A DNA stretch of 17,336 nt from a bacterium (GTDB taxonomy: Bacteria; AUK180). The notes beneath the pieces are model-generated. The model saw nothing but the letters and a program-made list of their open reading frames with translations. It was not told the origin of the DNA and did not search any database. The stretch covers positions 1 through 17,336 of the forward strand of contig JAUXGM010000033.1 in assembly GCA_030622125.1 (NCBI GenBank), in the 5' to 3' direction. Positions within the stretch are counted from its first letter, which is position 1, and the number at the start of each line of letters is the position of its first letter. Shown here piece after piece: positions 2,832-8,673 of this stretch. Made by a program: the position numbers and the translations under genes.

Positions 2832-3027
2832 TGGGGACGGTGGTTAGTTTGATTAGTTTCCTCACGTATTATTATATATCTTCTTTAGCCATATTTCTTT
2901 TATCATTGGGAAATATTAATTTACAGTTTTAGAAATTATTTTCGTTCCTTTTTTGTTAAAATTCTAATTGTTGATATATAGGCATATAAAAATTTAGTAA
3001 GTTAATACAAACTAACCACCGTCCCCA
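2832..3027. mobile_element. MITE/BIME-like non-autonomous element with 20-bp inverted ends
   Basis: The left end TGGGGACGGTGGTTAGTTTG (2832-2851) is the exact reverse complement of 3008-3027. The enclosed roughly 156 bp is AT-rich and has no credible reading frame on either strand. A GGGGACGGT core at paired inverted positions resembles REP pairs mobilised by Y1 (RAYT/IS200-like) transposases, but no transposase is present. Alternatively it is an ordinary MITE. The right end encodes the last residues and the TAG stop of the neighbouring Lnt-like gene. The transcript of that gene would fold the two arms into a long stem that could act as a terminator. I could not define target-site duplications. 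Confidence 0.7.
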
Positions 3028-4103
3028 ATATAAACTCTAATGTTATTTTTTTTCAAATACTTAATGCCCCATTTCATCCCTATTCGTGGTTTTTTACCCC
3101 ATCTTTCAGGGATCATTGACGGAACAATTAGAATATCACCGCTTTTTACCCTTTTATAGATATCGTTAAATAATATATCTTGACAGACGGCAAGTTTTAA
3201 AGTATGATTTTTGTAAATTATACAATCATTTATCGGTTCTTTCTTTATATGTGCTTCAAGAAATGGAATAGGATGATGTTTGTAGGTAAAGCTCTCATCA
3301 TCTTTGGAAAATAATGCAGCCCAGGATTCATGCTTTTCCTCGTTCTTCTTTGTAAATCCAAACGCCAAAAAACCATTTTCCTTAAAGTAAGGTGCAAATA
3401 TTGTTTTTATCTTGCCCTTTTCCTTTTGAAAATCCCTCTTAAATATATATTCATTCAGGATGGTACCGTCAAAACCCGCCATTCCATTGATAGTCTCAAT
3501 AATATTAAGTTCCTTATAAAGTTTCGGTGTTGAGATATGAAGGTAAAATAAATTTTCATTTATCTTCTTTGGGAAAAAATTTAAAAATAGGATCACTACT
3601 ATTGAAAAAATAATTCCCCTTTTGAAAGGAATAACGAGGATTATTATTGCAAGAATTATTGAAGAAAGATAGGGTCTTAACGGAAAATTGATATTAAATA
3701 TATTTACTAACGGATACGATATCAAAAGAGGCGGAAAAATGGAAAGAGTATTTAGTATAAATTCAACGATGGCAAAAAGCGGAACAAAGAGAATCAATGA
3801 AAAGATATTTTTTTTAAAAAGTATCAGAAAAGAAATAAGGTATAAAATAAAGATCAAGAAAAAAGCAAGTAAATAATACCATTTGATCGCTCTCACTGTC
3901 CAGAAAGTATTAGATAAAAGCAAAAAGAAAAGAAAAAAAACTAAATGTGAAGTCCGTCTTTTTCTAAATAATATCCATAATCCAAAAATGAACAGCAGAT
4001 AAAATACTAACGAGTTAGAGTAATAAAAAAAAGATAAAATGTATGAAAAAACCGCTATGCCAATAGCGTATAAAATATTACCTTTTACCTTTTTGAGACT
4101 CAT
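3012..4103 (-). CDS. lnt: Apolipoprotein N-acyltransferase-like membrane protein, probably C-terminally truncated
   Basis: Lnt transfers an acyl chain to the N-terminal cysteine of lipoproteins, using a periplasmic nitrilase-type domain carried by a membrane bundle. Here residues 10-175 hold several hydrophobic segments, followed by a soluble domain. In that domain K275 and E283 (YKHHPIPFLE) and C307 (LAVCQD) line up with the K335/E343 and catalytic C387 regions of E. coli Lnt, with the same 8-residue K-to-E spacing. E217 (ILNEY) may be the third triad member. The protein is 363 residues against about 500 for the family. It stops at RVYIGDGG, about where the family's NTG strand, the end of the domain and the last TM helix should follow. 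The stop codon and GDGG tail lie inside the inverted end of the 2832-3027 element. The start codon overlaps the upstream SPFH gene by 26 bp. Sequence similarity is modest, so a divergent nitrilase/Lnt relative is possible. Confidence 0.65.
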   Translation of the reverse strand: MSLKKVKGNILYAIGIAVFSYILSFFYYSNSLVFYLLFIFGLWILFRKRRTSHLVFFLFFLLLSNTFWTVRAIKWYYLLAFFLIFILYLISFLILFKKNIFSLILFVPLFAIVEFILNTLSIFPPLLISYPLVNIFNINFPLRPYLSSIILAIIILVIPFKRGIIFSIVVILFLNFFPKKINENLFYLHISTPKLYKELNIIETINGMAGFDGTILNEYIFKRDFQKEKGKIKTIFAPYFKENGFLAFGFTKKNEEKHESWAALFSKDDESFTYKHHPIPFLEAHIKKEPINDCIIYKNHTLKLAVCQDILFNDIYKRVKSGDILIVPSMIPERWGKKPRIGMKWGIKYLKKNNIRVYIGDGG

Positions 4104-5043
4104 TAACTATATCTTCAAGGTTCATAATTGTCGTCTGGTCGGTTACGATCACCTTTATATTATTTGAAAGTTTATTTACATAGAGCCAATTGCTATAGCC
4201 GGGATTTTGTTTTATTGCTTTACCGATTTGCTGAATCTTAGAAACCTCACCGGACGCCTCTATTTTTTTTCTTTCCGCTTCTTTTTGTTCTCTATCTAAA
4301 ACATATTCCATCTTCTGGGCATGCTGTTCTGCAATCTGCTTCTCCTCAATCGCCCTTTGAAATTCCTTTGGGAATACAATATCCCGCAATAATAATCTAT
4401 CAATAATGATCCCTTTATCTTTTATACTGTTTTTAAGACTTTCAAAAAGCTTTTCCTGAACCTCAGCCCTTTTTGAAGAATACAATTCCATAACTTTATA
4501 TTGTGAAACCGTATTTCTGATCAAAGAACGAATTGCCGGACGAAGTATCTTTTCTTCGTAATTTTCTCCGATGGTTTTGTGTAATAAAACCAGCTTTTCA
4601 GTATCTAATCTGAACCATAGAGTAAGATCAACACCTACCTGTAACCCTTCTTTTGTAGGGGACCATACGGAATCGTCGCCGTAGACTTTACCTTCTGATT
4701 TTGCAACAGACATCGTATATTCCTGTATCCGAATATCGTATTTATCAAGTTTGTAAATAAAGGGAACAATTATGTGAAAACCCTGTGTAAGCGTTGAAAG
4801 ATTTCCTCTTTTTGAAAGCTGATTAAATTTCACGATCGCAGTACCGGGTCTTACGATAACAACACCTTGGATAAGAATGATAATAAAAAGGATAATGGCT
4901 AAAATAGTAACAATCAATGCGGGCTTTATTCCGCTGCCTATTTTTTTCCCTTTTTCATTTACCCATTTGTGACCAGACGGCATAGAAGAAAAAATTATCA
5001 CAATAGCACCGATGAGAAGTATCAAAAAAATTACAAGTCCCAT
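4078..5043 (-). CDS. Prohibitin/SPFH-domain membrane protein
   Basis: SPFH proteins form large membrane-bound cage- or scaffold-like assemblies that often hold proteases such as FtsH or organise membrane microdomains. Two hydrophobic helices (about 2-19 and 42-62) are followed by the SPFH domain (about 60-230). Its prohibitin-like signatures include LRPAIRSLIRNTVSQYKVMELYSSKR (167-192) and LLLRDIVFPKEFQRAIEEKQIAEQ (217-240). A charged coiled coil covers about 228-275. Length (321) is normal. A strong AGGAGGT lies just upstream of the ATG, and the gap to the previous gene is 8 nt, so it is the third gene of the HD-GYP operon. Two N-terminal helices instead of one differ from classical prohibitin. 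The natural partner, perhaps a protease, is not in the window. Confidence 0.9.
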   Translation of the reverse strand: MGLVIFLILLIGAIVIIFSSMPSGHKWVNEKGKKIGSGIKPALIVTILAIILFIIILIQGVVIVRPGTAIVKFNQLSKRGNLSTLTQGFHIIVPFIYKLDKYDIRIQEYTMSVAKSEGKVYGDDSVWSPTKEGLQVGVDLTLWFRLDTEKLVLLHKTIGENYEEKILRPAIRSLIRNTVSQYKVMELYSSKRAEVQEKLFESLKNSIKDKGIIIDRLLLRDIVFPKEFQRAIEEKQIAEQHAQKMEYVLDREQKEAERKKIEASGEVSKIQQIGKAIKQNPGYSNWLYVNKLSNNIKVIVTDQTTIMNLEDIVNESQKGKR

Positions 5044-5051
5044 AGAACCTC

Positions 5052-5687
5052 CTATTTTATTAGTTCGAAAACTAAATAATTATTATTCAAGCCATTTATT
5101 CCTAAATATCTTACGGAATAACCTTCATATTCAAAACTCTCTATTTCTGTATAAATTTTTGTATTTTTAAGAAAATATATGCCCGGTATATTACCTTCTT
5201 TTGTGTATATTAGCGGATATTCTGCTCTCTTAGAGATACTGATGGGCGAAATTATATTTACTCCCTTTGCAATAAGCGAGCCGATCGCACCTACTGTGCC
5301 TCCCGTTTCCGAATAGATAAATACACCGACACCATCATCCTCAAATAATAGGTTTCCGCCTTTTATGAAATAATCACCGGTTCCGAGTTGTGAGAGTCCC
5401 TCTTTAAACATTACTCTTTTTACATTCCCTTTATTCAGTAGGATCAATTTTTCTCTTTTTTCCGTTTCTGTTACAGCAAAAGCCCCGTTTTTGATCTTTC
5501 CAGCAGTATAACCCTCATATTCAACATTGATATTTAAAGCTTTTAATATGTAATAATTTGTTGAACCGTAATTGATCAGTATCATTTTATTTTTAAGTGC
5601 ATCCATAAAAAAATCTTCTTTAATTAGGTTCGTAGCAATCTTTTCTTTTGCCTCTTCAATAGATAATATCTTCATTATTCTTTTCAT
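5052..5687 (-). CDS. Conserved protein of unknown function
   Basis: I do not recognise a characterised family. The 211-residue protein has no signal peptide or TM segment and is probably cytoplasmic. Glycine-rich motifs look conserved or ligand-binding: NYGSTNYYILKAL (39-51), GTGDYFIKGGN (102-112) and ETGGTVGAIGSLIAKGVNII (127-146), followed by PISISKR. I vaguely recall similar FIKGxN...TGGTxGA patterns in hypothetical proteins of anaerobes, but cannot name the family. It sits 7 nt after the HD-GYP gene and 8 nt before the SPFH gene, so it is co-transcribed with both. Shine-Dalgarno for the first ATG is weak (TAGTGG). A second ATG at codon 5 (5675) is an alternative start. Confidence 0.8.
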   Translation of the reverse strand: MKRIMKILSIEEAKEKIATNLIKEDFFMDALKNKMILINYGSTNYYILKALNINVEYEGYTAGKIKNGAFAVTETEKREKLILLNKGNVKRVMFKEGLSQLGTGDYFIKGGNLLFEDDGVGVFIYSETGGTVGAIGSLIAKGVNIISPISISKRAEYPLIYTKEGNIPGIYFLKNTKIYTEIESFEYEGYSVRYLGINGLNNNYLVFELIK

Positions 5688-5694
5688 TTTTCCA

Positions 5695-7521
5695 CTACAT
5701 TTTTATGTTTCCTTCTAAAATAGGAAGTAAATGTTTCTGAATATGATATTTTTCATCATCATCTACTTCTTTATAAAATTCCATTAAGACCCTTCTACAT
5801 AAAATCTCGTAATAGATCTGTTTCTCCTCTTGTGCAAGGGTAGCAGCAAGTTCCATTGAACTAATTGCCTTTCTTATATCAATATCTTCATACATTATCC
5901 CTTTCAAGTAGAAATAATACATGAGAATATCATTTTTCTTTATTTCATTTATATTTATTTTATCCAAAATTTCTCGTGCTCTTTCTCTGTTATTTTCATA
6001 AAAATTTATTTCTGCTTCAAGCAGATCGATCTCGTAATTTCTTTGGAATTCAGTTTTAAGGTTATGATAGATCATTTTTGCACTTACAAAATCTTGAGCA
6101 AGCATAAAATTTTTTATCCGTTCCATATATGATAAATAAATCCCATTTTTGAGATGCAATCTTTTTGAAAGTCTATAATTCATGAGAAAATCTTGTTCCG
6201 CCTTTTTAAACTTGCTCATCAAACTGTAAACCTTACCTCTGCCGCCATAACTTATTGAAAGTCCGTAATTATCATCAAGATCATTTTTTAGATCTATTGA
6301 CTTATTATAGTATTCAAGTGCTCTTTTAAAATTTCCGAGATCAAAATCAATGCGTCCTAAAACATCATAAAGTTTTGCCAAATTAAGTGAAATTTCTTCG
6401 TATAATAGGTAATTTTCATCAAAAATTTCAAAAAATTTAATTCCCATTTCAAGATTTCCACCTTGCTCTTCTAATAATTTTTTTGCAAGTTCCTGGTATA
6501 TATCCTCTGCATAAGACATTTCTACAAGGGCAGCTTCCTTTCTCATCGTTTTCCAGTAAGCCATTGCAAGATGTCTCAACGCTCTTGCCTTTTCAAATGG
6601 CGTAATATCCTTATTTGATAATACCATTTCCGATATATTTATCACCTCATCATATTCTTTCTTATAATAATGATATAATGCCATTTCATTTAAGAATTTG
6701 TCGTTAATTGCAACTTTGTATTTAATTGACATTTTTTCTATTCTATCGATAGTTTTTTTTGAATCACCGAGCCTCTTCATTTTATTTTGGACCTCTAATA
6801 TTTTAAGTTCCAATTTGAACGCATGTTGTGGTGTTGAGACTTTCTTAATAGCATTTTTAAAAAGTCTTATCGCCTCTAACCAAAGAGTTCCTTCATCCGT
6901 AGAGGCAAAGTTTATACCTTTCAAGTATTCTATTTCTCCAAAATTAAAAAGTTCATGAAAAATATCAACAATTTGGGGATCAAATAGAATTCCTCTATTT
7001 TCAAGGATCTCTTTCATTGCTTCATTACTAGTTTTTTGTCTTCTGTAAACTCTATTTGTTGTCATTGCATCAAAACTGTCACAAACAGCAATGATCCTTG
7101 AGATCAACGGAATTTCCGTATTTGATAATTGATCAGGATAACCGCTGCCGTTCCATCTTTCGTGATGGTGCTTTATTATTTTAGCGATCTCCTTTAAAAA
7201 CGGATGTCTACTCAATATGTGCTGGGCATAGATTACATGTTTCTCCATCTCAATGGCTTCTTCTCTTGTGAATTTCCCTTTCTTTTTAAGAATGGCTTCG
7301 GGGATTTTTGCTTTTCCAATATCGTGGAGTTGAGCGGCTAAATATGTTCTGAAAATACTATCCTTGTCCAAATCAAGCCTTTCTACTATCTTCATTGAAT
7401 ACAATCTTACCCGTTCCGAATGCCCCCAGGTATATTTATCCTTTGCATCAATTGATTCTGTCAAATACTTTATCGAAAGTATAAATAAGTCTTGTGCCCT
7501 TAATTGGAATACTTCTCTCAT
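5695..7521 (-). CDS. HD-GYP domain phosphodiesterase with TPR C-terminal half
   Basis: HD-GYP proteins hydrolyse cyclic di-GMP (some cGAMP) with a bi- or trinuclear metal centre. The domain starts almost at the N-terminus and seems complete: GHSERV (33-38), HDIGK (66-70) with KIPEAIL after it, H95, HHERWNGSGYP (119-129) and DSFDAMTTNRVYR (148-160). No receiver, PAS or membrane segment precedes it. Residues from about 210 to 600 are helical repeats of TPR type, e.g. DLGNFKRALEYYNKSIDL and neighbours near 390-480, likely sensing or docking partners. The ATG is only 9 nt from the 3' end of a tRNA gene, with no Shine-Dalgarno in that gap. The next Met is codon 43, beyond the first HD-GYP histidine, so this start is preferred. 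It heads the operon with the unknown gene, SPFH and Lnt-like genes. Confidence 0.92.
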   Translation of the reverse strand: MREVFQLRAQDLFILSIKYLTESIDAKDKYTWGHSERVRLYSMKIVERLDLDKDSIFRTYLAAQLHDIGKAKIPEAILKKKGKFTREEAIEMEKHVIYAQHILSRHPFLKEIAKIIKHHHERWNGSGYPDQLSNTEIPLISRIIAVCDSFDAMTTNRVYRRQKTSNEAMKEILENRGILFDPQIVDIFHELFNFGEIEYLKGINFASTDEGTLWLEAIRLFKNAIKKVSTPQHAFKLELKILEVQNKMKRLGDSKKTIDRIEKMSIKYKVAINDKFLNEMALYHYYKKEYDEVINISEMVLSNKDITPFEKARALRHLAMAYWKTMRKEAALVEMSYAEDIYQELAKKLLEEQGGNLEMGIKFFEIFDENYLLYEEISLNLAKLYDVLGRIDFDLGNFKRALEYYNKSIDLKNDLDDNYGLSISYGGRGKVYSLMSKFKKAEQDFLMNYRLSKRLHLKNGIYLSYMERIKNFMLAQDFVSAKMIYHNLKTEFQRNYEIDLLEAEINFYENNRERAREILDKININEIKKNDILMYYFYLKGIMYEDIDIRKAISSMELAATLAQEEKQIYYEILCRRVLMEFYKEVDDDEKYHIQKHLLPILEGNIKM

Positions 7522-7530
7522 TTTATAAAA

Positions 7531-7606
7531 TGGTACCCTGGAGAGGATTTGAACCTCCGACCCATGGATTAGGAATCCATTGCTCTATCCTCTGAGCTAC
7601 CAGGGC
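7531..7606 (-). tRNA. tRNA-Arg (anticodon CCU)
   Basis: The minus strand gives a 76-nt cloverleaf. The acceptor stem GCCCTGG pairs with CCAGGGT (closing G-U), then discriminator A and an encoded CCA. The D arm contains TAGCTCAGAGGATAGAGC. The anticodon stem ATGGA/TCCAT encloses loop TTCCTAA, giving CCT. The T arm contains GGTTCAAATCC. This isoacceptor reads AGG arginine codons. It has its own promoter directly upstream and is followed 9 nt later by the HD-GYP start codon, so the primary transcript probably contains both. Confidence 0.97.
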
Positions 7607-7616
7607 TCTTTTTATT

Positions 7617-7644
7617 ATTATATCAAATTAAAAAAAATAGTCAA
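7617..7644 (-). promoter_or_regulatory. Sigma70-type promoter for tRNA-Arg and the HD-GYP operon
   Basis: Minus-strand TTGACT (7644-7639), a 16-bp spacer and a perfect TATAAT (7622-7617) put the start site about 4 nt before the tRNA 5' end. No other promoter-sized gap exists before the HD-GYP gene, so the four downstream protein genes likely depend on it. Confidence 0.75.
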
Positions 7645-7656
7645 CATCTTTCGGTT

Positions 7657-8673
7657 TTAAAATAATCTCGGCGGATCTTTGCCGGGATTGTATCCCAAAT
7701 ATCTCAAAGCTTCACGGGTGATGACCCGTCCCCTTTGCGTTCTTTTTATAAATCCGATCTGAATCAAATATGGTTCATATATATCTTCTAATGTCTCCTT
7801 TGCTTCCGAAAGAGCAATGGCAAGTGTAGATAATCCCACAGGACCGCCATTATATTTCTCTGCAATGATCCTCAAAAGCCGCTTATCAATATTGTCAAGC
7901 CCCTTCTCATCTATCTTTAATTTTTCAAGTGAAAATATGGTAATATCAAAATCAATAATTCCCTTACCTTTTACCTGTGCATAATCCCTTACTCTCTTTA
8001 AGAGACGAATAGCAATTCTTGGTGTGCCTCTTGATCTTTTTGCGATTTCTTTTGCCGCATCATCTGTTATTTCAATATTTAAAACCTTTGAATCCCTAAT
8101 AATGATCTTTGCAAGGTCTTCATAGTTATAAAATTCCAATCGGTTTATTATCCCGAATCTGTCTCTTAAAGGCGAGGTCAGCATTCCCGCCCTTGTTGTA
8201 GCACCGATCAGGGTAAAATGCGGAACATCCAATCTGATCGTCTTTGCCGAAGGACCTTGTCCAATTATAATATCAAGTGCAAAATCCTCCATTGCAGGAT
8301 AAAGTGTCTCCTCAACCGATCTATTCAATCTATGTATCTCATCTATTAAGAGTATGTCCTTTTCCTCTAAATTTGAAAGTATCGATGCAATATCTTTTTT
8401 TCTTTCAAGGGCGGGACCGGTTGTTATGTGAATATTGACACCAAGCTCCTGAGCCATTATATAGGCAATTGTGGTTTTACCAAGTCCCGGCGGACCATAG
8501 AGAAGTATATGATCAAGGTGTTCATCACGTTCCTTTGTTGCCTGAATAGCAACCTTGAGTTGTTCAACAACATCCTTTTGCCCGACAAATTCCGTTAATT
8601 TTTTGGGCCTTAATGTTTTTTCGATCTCTTCTTCACCATTAAATTGAGAAGGCATATTGATATCATTATTCAT
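7657..8673 (-). CDS. ruvB: Holliday junction branch-migration ATPase RuvB
   Basis: RuvB is the hexameric AAA+ motor that pumps DNA through the RuvA-bound Holliday junction. All hallmarks are present: Walker A GPPGLGKT (60-67), Walker B LLIDEIH (108-114), sensor 1 GATTRAG (157-163), PLRDRFG (168-174) with arginine finger R170, sensor 2 RGTPRI (215-220), and a C-terminal winged helix ending in [11 protein letters not shown]. Length 338 is normal. The start overlaps the ruvA stop by 8 nt and an AAAGGTG ribosome site precedes it. A Met at codon 7 is a weaker alternative. It is the last gene of the yebC-ruv operon. I see no convincing hairpin terminator in the 50 bp before the tRNA gene. Confidence 0.98.

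Follow-up and report, generated by a model that had tools for sequence, protein, structure and literature searches.

The window, a 17,336-nucleotide stretch of DNA from a bacterium of an uncultured lineage, carries on its minus strand a tRNA-Arg(CCU) gene that ends just short of the start codon of an HD-GYP gene. Several other tRNAs in the family of this bacterium show the same layout. It is probable that tRNA 3' processing makes near-leaderless mRNA 5' ends at such junctions. By itself the HD-GYP case is no more than a modest curiosity, and the greater interest lies in the recurrence of the layout.

The tRNA-Arg(CCU)/HD-GYP junction

The window belongs to the genome designated G000 and is read here on the minus strand. 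The order is the end of ruvB, a promoter, 10 nt, tRNA-Arg(CCU), a 9-nt spacer, and the HD-GYP ATG at 7521, followed by the rest of the operon:

7657..8673, minus strand: ruvB, the upstream neighbor, with the tRNA promoter just past its stop codon
7617..7644, minus strand: promoter TTGACT-16-TATAAT, 11/12 matches, with TG before the -10 box
7531..7606, minus strand: tRNA-Arg(CCU), CCA encoded, placed by ARAGORN (as 7606..7531) and Rfam
7522..7530, minus strand: 9-nt spacer TTTTATAAA, with no Shine-Dalgarno sequence (SD), no terminator, and no -10 box at leaderless spacing
5695..7521, minus strand: HD-GYP and TPR protein, 608 aa, ATG start (Pfam HD_5, E 1.8e-42, plus TPR)
5052..5687, minus strand: 211-aa protein, the operon's next gene, with no Pfam or NCBIfam match
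4078..5043, minus strand: SPFH/Band 7 protein, the operon's third gene (ORF and Pfam)
3012..4103, minus strand: membrane protein gene overlapping the SPFH gene, apolipoprotein N-acyltransferase-like by eye, with no Pfam match

The original prediction had described a promoter near consensus, an ATG 10 nt past the CCA end, and a gap lacking an SD; ARAGORN, Rfam, promoter scoring, and ORF calling confirmed this layout. TTGACT-16-TATAAT (7644..7617) is the best promoter match of the region, and a similar promoter precedes tRNA-Arg(CCU) in related genomes. The purine runs closest to the ATG lie within the folded tRNA, not in the spacer. Rfam identified the tRNA as the sole structural RNA match in the window, and the RNA spanning tRNA, spacer, and coding sequence (CDS) is predicted to fold no better than its shuffles (z -1.1). 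Given the 9-nt gap, the lack of room for a terminator, and the strong tRNA promoter, co-transcription of tRNA-Arg and the HD-GYP gene would be nearly unavoidable. As judged from sequence alone, the two genes have the attributes of a mixed tRNA-mRNA operon (same strand, shared promoter, no intervening terminator), and also those of tRNA punctuation, in that the tRNA abuts the CDS and a separate promoter signal for the mRNA is absent.

The HD-GYP designation proved correct, with H66 and D67, H119 and H120, and G127, Y128, and P129 invariant in the alignment. The closest PDB match is a 3'3'-cGAMP phosphodiesterase, and the c-di-GMP phosphodiesterase 4r8z was also matched; the motif residues predict a member of the HD-GYP c-di-GMP phosphodiesterase family. 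Orthologues from four relatives are 41–55% identical to the window protein, and in all of them, including one encoded in a different operon, the N-terminus is 13 residues from a conserved LF. On the strength of this equal length other start codons were rejected, and the ATG assignment is sound. Gaps between the HD-GYP, 211-aa, and SPFH genes are within 8 nt, and the membrane-protein gene then overlaps. A 214-aa ORF without a Pfam match occupies the same place after the HD-GYP gene in relative G003, and a similar SPFH-type ORF also lies downstream in G001, G003, and G004.

The comparison set for G000 comprised four relatives of the same family (G001–G004) and two class relatives, all of them metagenome assemblies. 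A scan of the genome contigs revealed no full-length HD-GYP orthologues besides those of the four relatives. Among the five family genomes, the tight tRNA-Arg/HD-GYP junction occurs in G000 only. G004 and G001 share an arrangement of a sigma/phosphoribosyltransferase gene, a promoter, tRNA-Arg(CCU), and, approximately 43 nt (G004) or 380 nt (G001) further on, the HD-GYP gene with its own promoter, TTGAAA-17-TATAAT, the -10 box of which ends 6 nt before the ATG. The G003 gene lies away from tRNA-Arg behind TTGAAT-17-TATAAT, which stops 5 nt short of the ATG, while that of G002, also apart from tRNA-Arg, overlaps the preceding gene in a chemotaxis-like operon. In G001, G003, and G004, the mRNA for the HD-GYP protein thus appears to be leaderless. 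The check proposed for the original prediction, whether relatives keep the junction, was negative. Two observations had been named as counting against the pairing: unlinked genes in relatives, which were found in part, and a promoter inside the tRNA, which was not found.

The ORF directly upstream of tRNA-Arg(CCU) in relatives, approximately 446 aa long, combines sigma-70 regions 2, 3, and 4 with a phosphoribosyltransferase domain resembling adenine phosphoribosyltransferase; all four domains are recognized by Pfam in three genera. This joining of a sigma factor to a purine-salvage enzyme looks unusual. The ORF was located at:

L009:3438-4781, minus strand
L010:3773-4735, minus strand (partial ORF call)
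L029:324-1664, minus strand
L032:160-1500, plus strand
L091:7-768, minus strand (partial)

Recurrence of tight tRNA-to-ATG junctions

Forty tRNAs were located in G000, together with those of G002, G003, and G004, and for each run-ending tRNA it was recorded how far downstream the next ORF begins and whether an SD is present. ORFs were called by length, and the 3' ends of CCA-less tRNAs are uncertain by 1 nt. An ATG without an SD lies 3–17 nt after about 19 of the 97 run-ending tRNAs in these four genera (G000, 6/22; G004, 3/27; G003, 5/26; G002, 5/22), compared with one or two of 63 control tRNAs from approximately 30 other genomes, a small convenience sample in which two genomes are actually class relatives. 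The corresponding Fisher P values (0.0003 or 0.0016) are indicative only, as the criterion was set post hoc and related genomes do not yield independent junctions.

Several of the junctions are shared. The gap between tRNA-Gln(UUG) and the gene for a GlmU-type nucleotidyltransferase is 10 nt in each of the four genera, with spacers unrelated in sequence and proteins 43–56% identical; it is 13 nt in G005, which belongs to another family. tRNA-Gly(CCC) precedes a PHP hydrolase of the RNase RNM or nucleoside bisphosphate phosphatase type by 7–14 nt across genera (23 nt, with a TTG start, in G005). tRNA-Met(CAU) precedes tilS by 8–12 nt across genera, with a possible SD inside the gap in G004, and by 10 nt in G005, so that this linkage spans two families. 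The CAU tRNA before tilS is of the elongator Met type by eye, and in G000 an initiator-type tRNA-Met precedes it. A GGDEF diguanylate cyclase gene (42–47% protein identity) follows tRNA-Ser(GCU) by 13–21 nt in three genera, and tRNA-Thr(CGU) stands 7 nt (G002) or 14 nt (G003, TTG start) ahead of a TMEM260-like gene; the G000 homologue of this gene has a leaderless-type start, TTGAAA-17-TATTCT-5-GTG. Coordinates for two of these genes are:

L211:3550-4893: tilS, 3–12 nt after a CAU tRNA at this locus and in relatives (L272, L303, L314, and L427)
L226:3506-4798: GGDEF diguanylate cyclase, 17 nt after tRNA-Ser(GCU), in G000

An SD is present for two other conserved tRNA-linked genes of the family, those behind tRNA-Pro (LOG protein) and tRNA-Leu (trigger factor). 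Genome G021, which is unrelated, also has a tRNA-Arg(CCU) with a tadA-like ORF beginning 15 nt beyond it and lacking an SD (L049 near 1496, minus strand), and such junctions are therefore not strictly confined to the lineage of the window.

The arrangement thus recurs at several tRNAs, as expected of tRNA punctuation, and this recurrence lends support to the general idea of the original prediction, that tRNA processing sets the mRNA 5' end; a 9-nt leader also fits a genome that uses leaderless mRNAs. The circuit specific to HD-GYP fared less well. The Ser-GGDEF and Arg-HD-GYP junctions place genes for both synthesis and breakdown of c-di-GMP behind tRNAs in G000, but the proposed tie between c-di-GMP and tRNA maturation is not supported: the HD-GYP junction is private to G000, and the tie is unproven because the products of the tRNA-abutting genes are functionally diverse (GlmU, TilS, PHP hydrolase, glycosyltransferase, diguanylate cyclase).

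Proposed initiation on short leaders, and tRNA 3' maturation

Initiation without an SD was surveyed in approximately 1.04 Mb of G000 (half of the genome), using a simple ORF method that gave 671 ATG-start genes. An SD accompanies the first ATG in approximately 53% of these genes and is absent at roughly 40–47% of called starts. TATAAT-like boxes whose ends lie 5 or 6 nt upstream of the ATG number 33 and 19, respectively, versus approximately 14 expected from neighboring positions (P about 2e-5 for both positions together). Of these 52 boxes, 49 precede SD-less genes and three precede others, and 43 are also accompanied by a plausible -35 box. Approximately 40 genes of the sampled half have leaderless-type promoters. 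With this number of genes, SD-less initiation seems normal in G000, and dual initiation, SD-dependent and leaderless, is likely to be the norm. The absence of an SD alone is weak evidence, because 40–47% of starts lack one and a gap of 9 nt is too short to hold it; short gaps and SD-lessness are not independent of each other.

The following mechanism is proposed for the window. The promoter at 7644-7617 would produce a single transcript of tRNA-Arg(CCU), the 9-nt spacer, and the HD-GYP operon. A cut at the tRNA 3' end would leave an mRNA whose 5' end lies approximately 9 nt before the AUG; the leader predicted for cleavage after CCA (9 nt) compares with -10 boxes 5–6 nt before the ATG of the orthologues. 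This short-leader mRNA would be translated without an SD, in the manner of leaderless mRNAs from the dedicated promoters of G000. A ribosome positioned at an AUG needs roughly at least 15 nt of single-stranded mRNA upstream, so a folded tRNA that ends 10 nt upstream of the AUG should stand in its way. In an uncut transcript the ribosome should be hindered, and tRNA maturation thus probably permits or boosts HD-GYP translation. Translational coupling is excluded, as no CDS directly precedes the HD-GYP start. For the junctions in general, the simplest account is that tRNA 3' processing would leave leaders of 7–14 nt, on which initiation would proceed independently of an SD.

Alternatively, the junctions could be ordinary tRNA-mRNA operons in which genes are simply tightly packed, cleavage has no translational role, and initiation occurs independently of an SD on an A/U-rich site either way. 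Tightly packed operons occur elsewhere in the window, many called starts are SD-less, the HD-GYP gene is found in other contexts, and some tRNA-linked genes do have an SD. However, such short gaps are rare in unrelated genomes, the Gln-GlmU gap is held at exactly 10 nt in four genera despite unrelated spacers, and a ribosome on the AUG should, given its established footprint size, take up the spacer and reach over the 3' end of the tRNA. This explanation is credible but rather unlikely. A promoter inside the tRNA, with the T-loop serving as -35 and the spacer as -10, would instead make a leaderless mRNA independently of processing. The T-loop TTCRAA does look like a weak -35 and is spaced approximately as required, and good -10 boxes near the gap are present in two G003 spacers, those of Gly (TATAAT) and Gln (CATAAT), for which a promoter of their own is possible. 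When -35/-10 pairs at leaderless spacing were scored in tRNA plus spacer at 21 junctions, no promoter signal above shuffled spacers was detected (observed mean 5.67, shuffled 5.76), and such a promoter was rejected as a general explanation. The window junction scores 5 versus 6.7 for its shuffles, whereas the true leaderless-type promoters of HD-GYP orthologues reach 10–11/12, making an internal promoter improbable here.

It is more improbable still that the window records a one-off rearrangement, in which the HD-GYP gene was parted from its former leaderless promoter, landed behind a tRNA, and now has little or no expression. The restriction of the junction to G000 would fit such an event, as would the upstream neighbor being ruvB and not the sigma/phosphoribosyltransferase gene of relatives, but the 608-aa ORF is intact with its catalytic residues kept, the downstream genes are present, and the same layout is found at several other tRNAs in the family.

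In approximately half of the G000 tRNAs the CCA is not encoded, so that the 3' cut must be accurate. RNase E/G is absent from all five family genomes (91–96% complete) and was found in both class relatives, which are of another family. Searches for canonical RNase Z gave nothing above the cut-off (293 bits) in seven genomes; diverged metallo-beta-lactamase-fold proteins with RNase Z as best match score 72–74 bits in G002–G004, and nothing exceeds 39 bits in G000. Six of the seven genomes clearly have RNase Y. P. acnes, which has no obvious tRNase Z, nevertheless cuts tRNA 3' ends endonucleolytically (PMC3848588). It is tempting to speculate, though this is decidedly tentative, that tRNA punctuation is a routine source of near-leaderless mRNAs family-wide, that the folded tRNA holds back initiation until it is cut away, and that the output of GlmU, TilS, PHP hydrolase, and c-di-GMP enzymes depends on an endonuclease, other than RNase E/G or canonical RNase Z, that matures tRNA 3' ends. 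If so, translation of a set of genes would hang directly on tRNA maturation. The junctions could be used to ask how bacterial ribosomes start on SD-less leaders of 7–14 nt, and which enzyme cuts tRNA 3' ends where RNase E/G and canonical RNase Z are lacking.

Comparison with known systems

Among open-licence papers, no report was found of tRNA excision making leaderless mRNAs in bacteria. Bacterial tRNA-mRNA operons are textbook knowledge, the E. coli examples being thrT-tufB, metY-rimP-nusA, and tyrT-tpr. As in these, a tRNA and a protein gene here share a promoter and would be separated by processing. However, the E. coli mRNAs have longer leaders with an SD, in contrast to the SD-less gap of approximately 10 nt described here.

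Mycobacteria, Streptomyces, and P. acnes have many leaderless mRNAs (PMC3848588, PMC4681348, PMC4633059). The predicted mRNAs would resemble these in being translated from leaders of 0–10 nt without an SD, and in a subset of genes here the -10 box lies 5–6 nt before the ATG. In actinobacteria, however, the 5' end is the transcription start, whereas at the junctions it would come from tRNA processing. An endonuclease cut that creates leaderless mRNAs has a precedent in MazF of E. coli, in the account relayed by PMC3848588, although MazF is a stress toxin and has no part in tRNA maturation.

A close parallel in layout is tRNA punctuation, which is established in human mitochondria (PMC8348895). 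In animal mitochondria, according to Ojala, Montoya, and Attardi 1981 as conveyed by PMC8348895, tRNAs lie directly before CDSs and their excision defines mRNA 5' ends. Here too tRNAs abut CDSs, and excision would set an mRNA 5' end near the start codon, without an SD. In contrast to mitochondria, the junctions are on a bacterial chromosome, involve some tRNAs only, have separate promoters and predicted leaders of 7–17 nt, and stand among genes most of which have an SD. If the proposal is true, a hallmark of mitochondria, the production of leaderless mRNAs by tRNA excision, would also be found in free-living bacteria.
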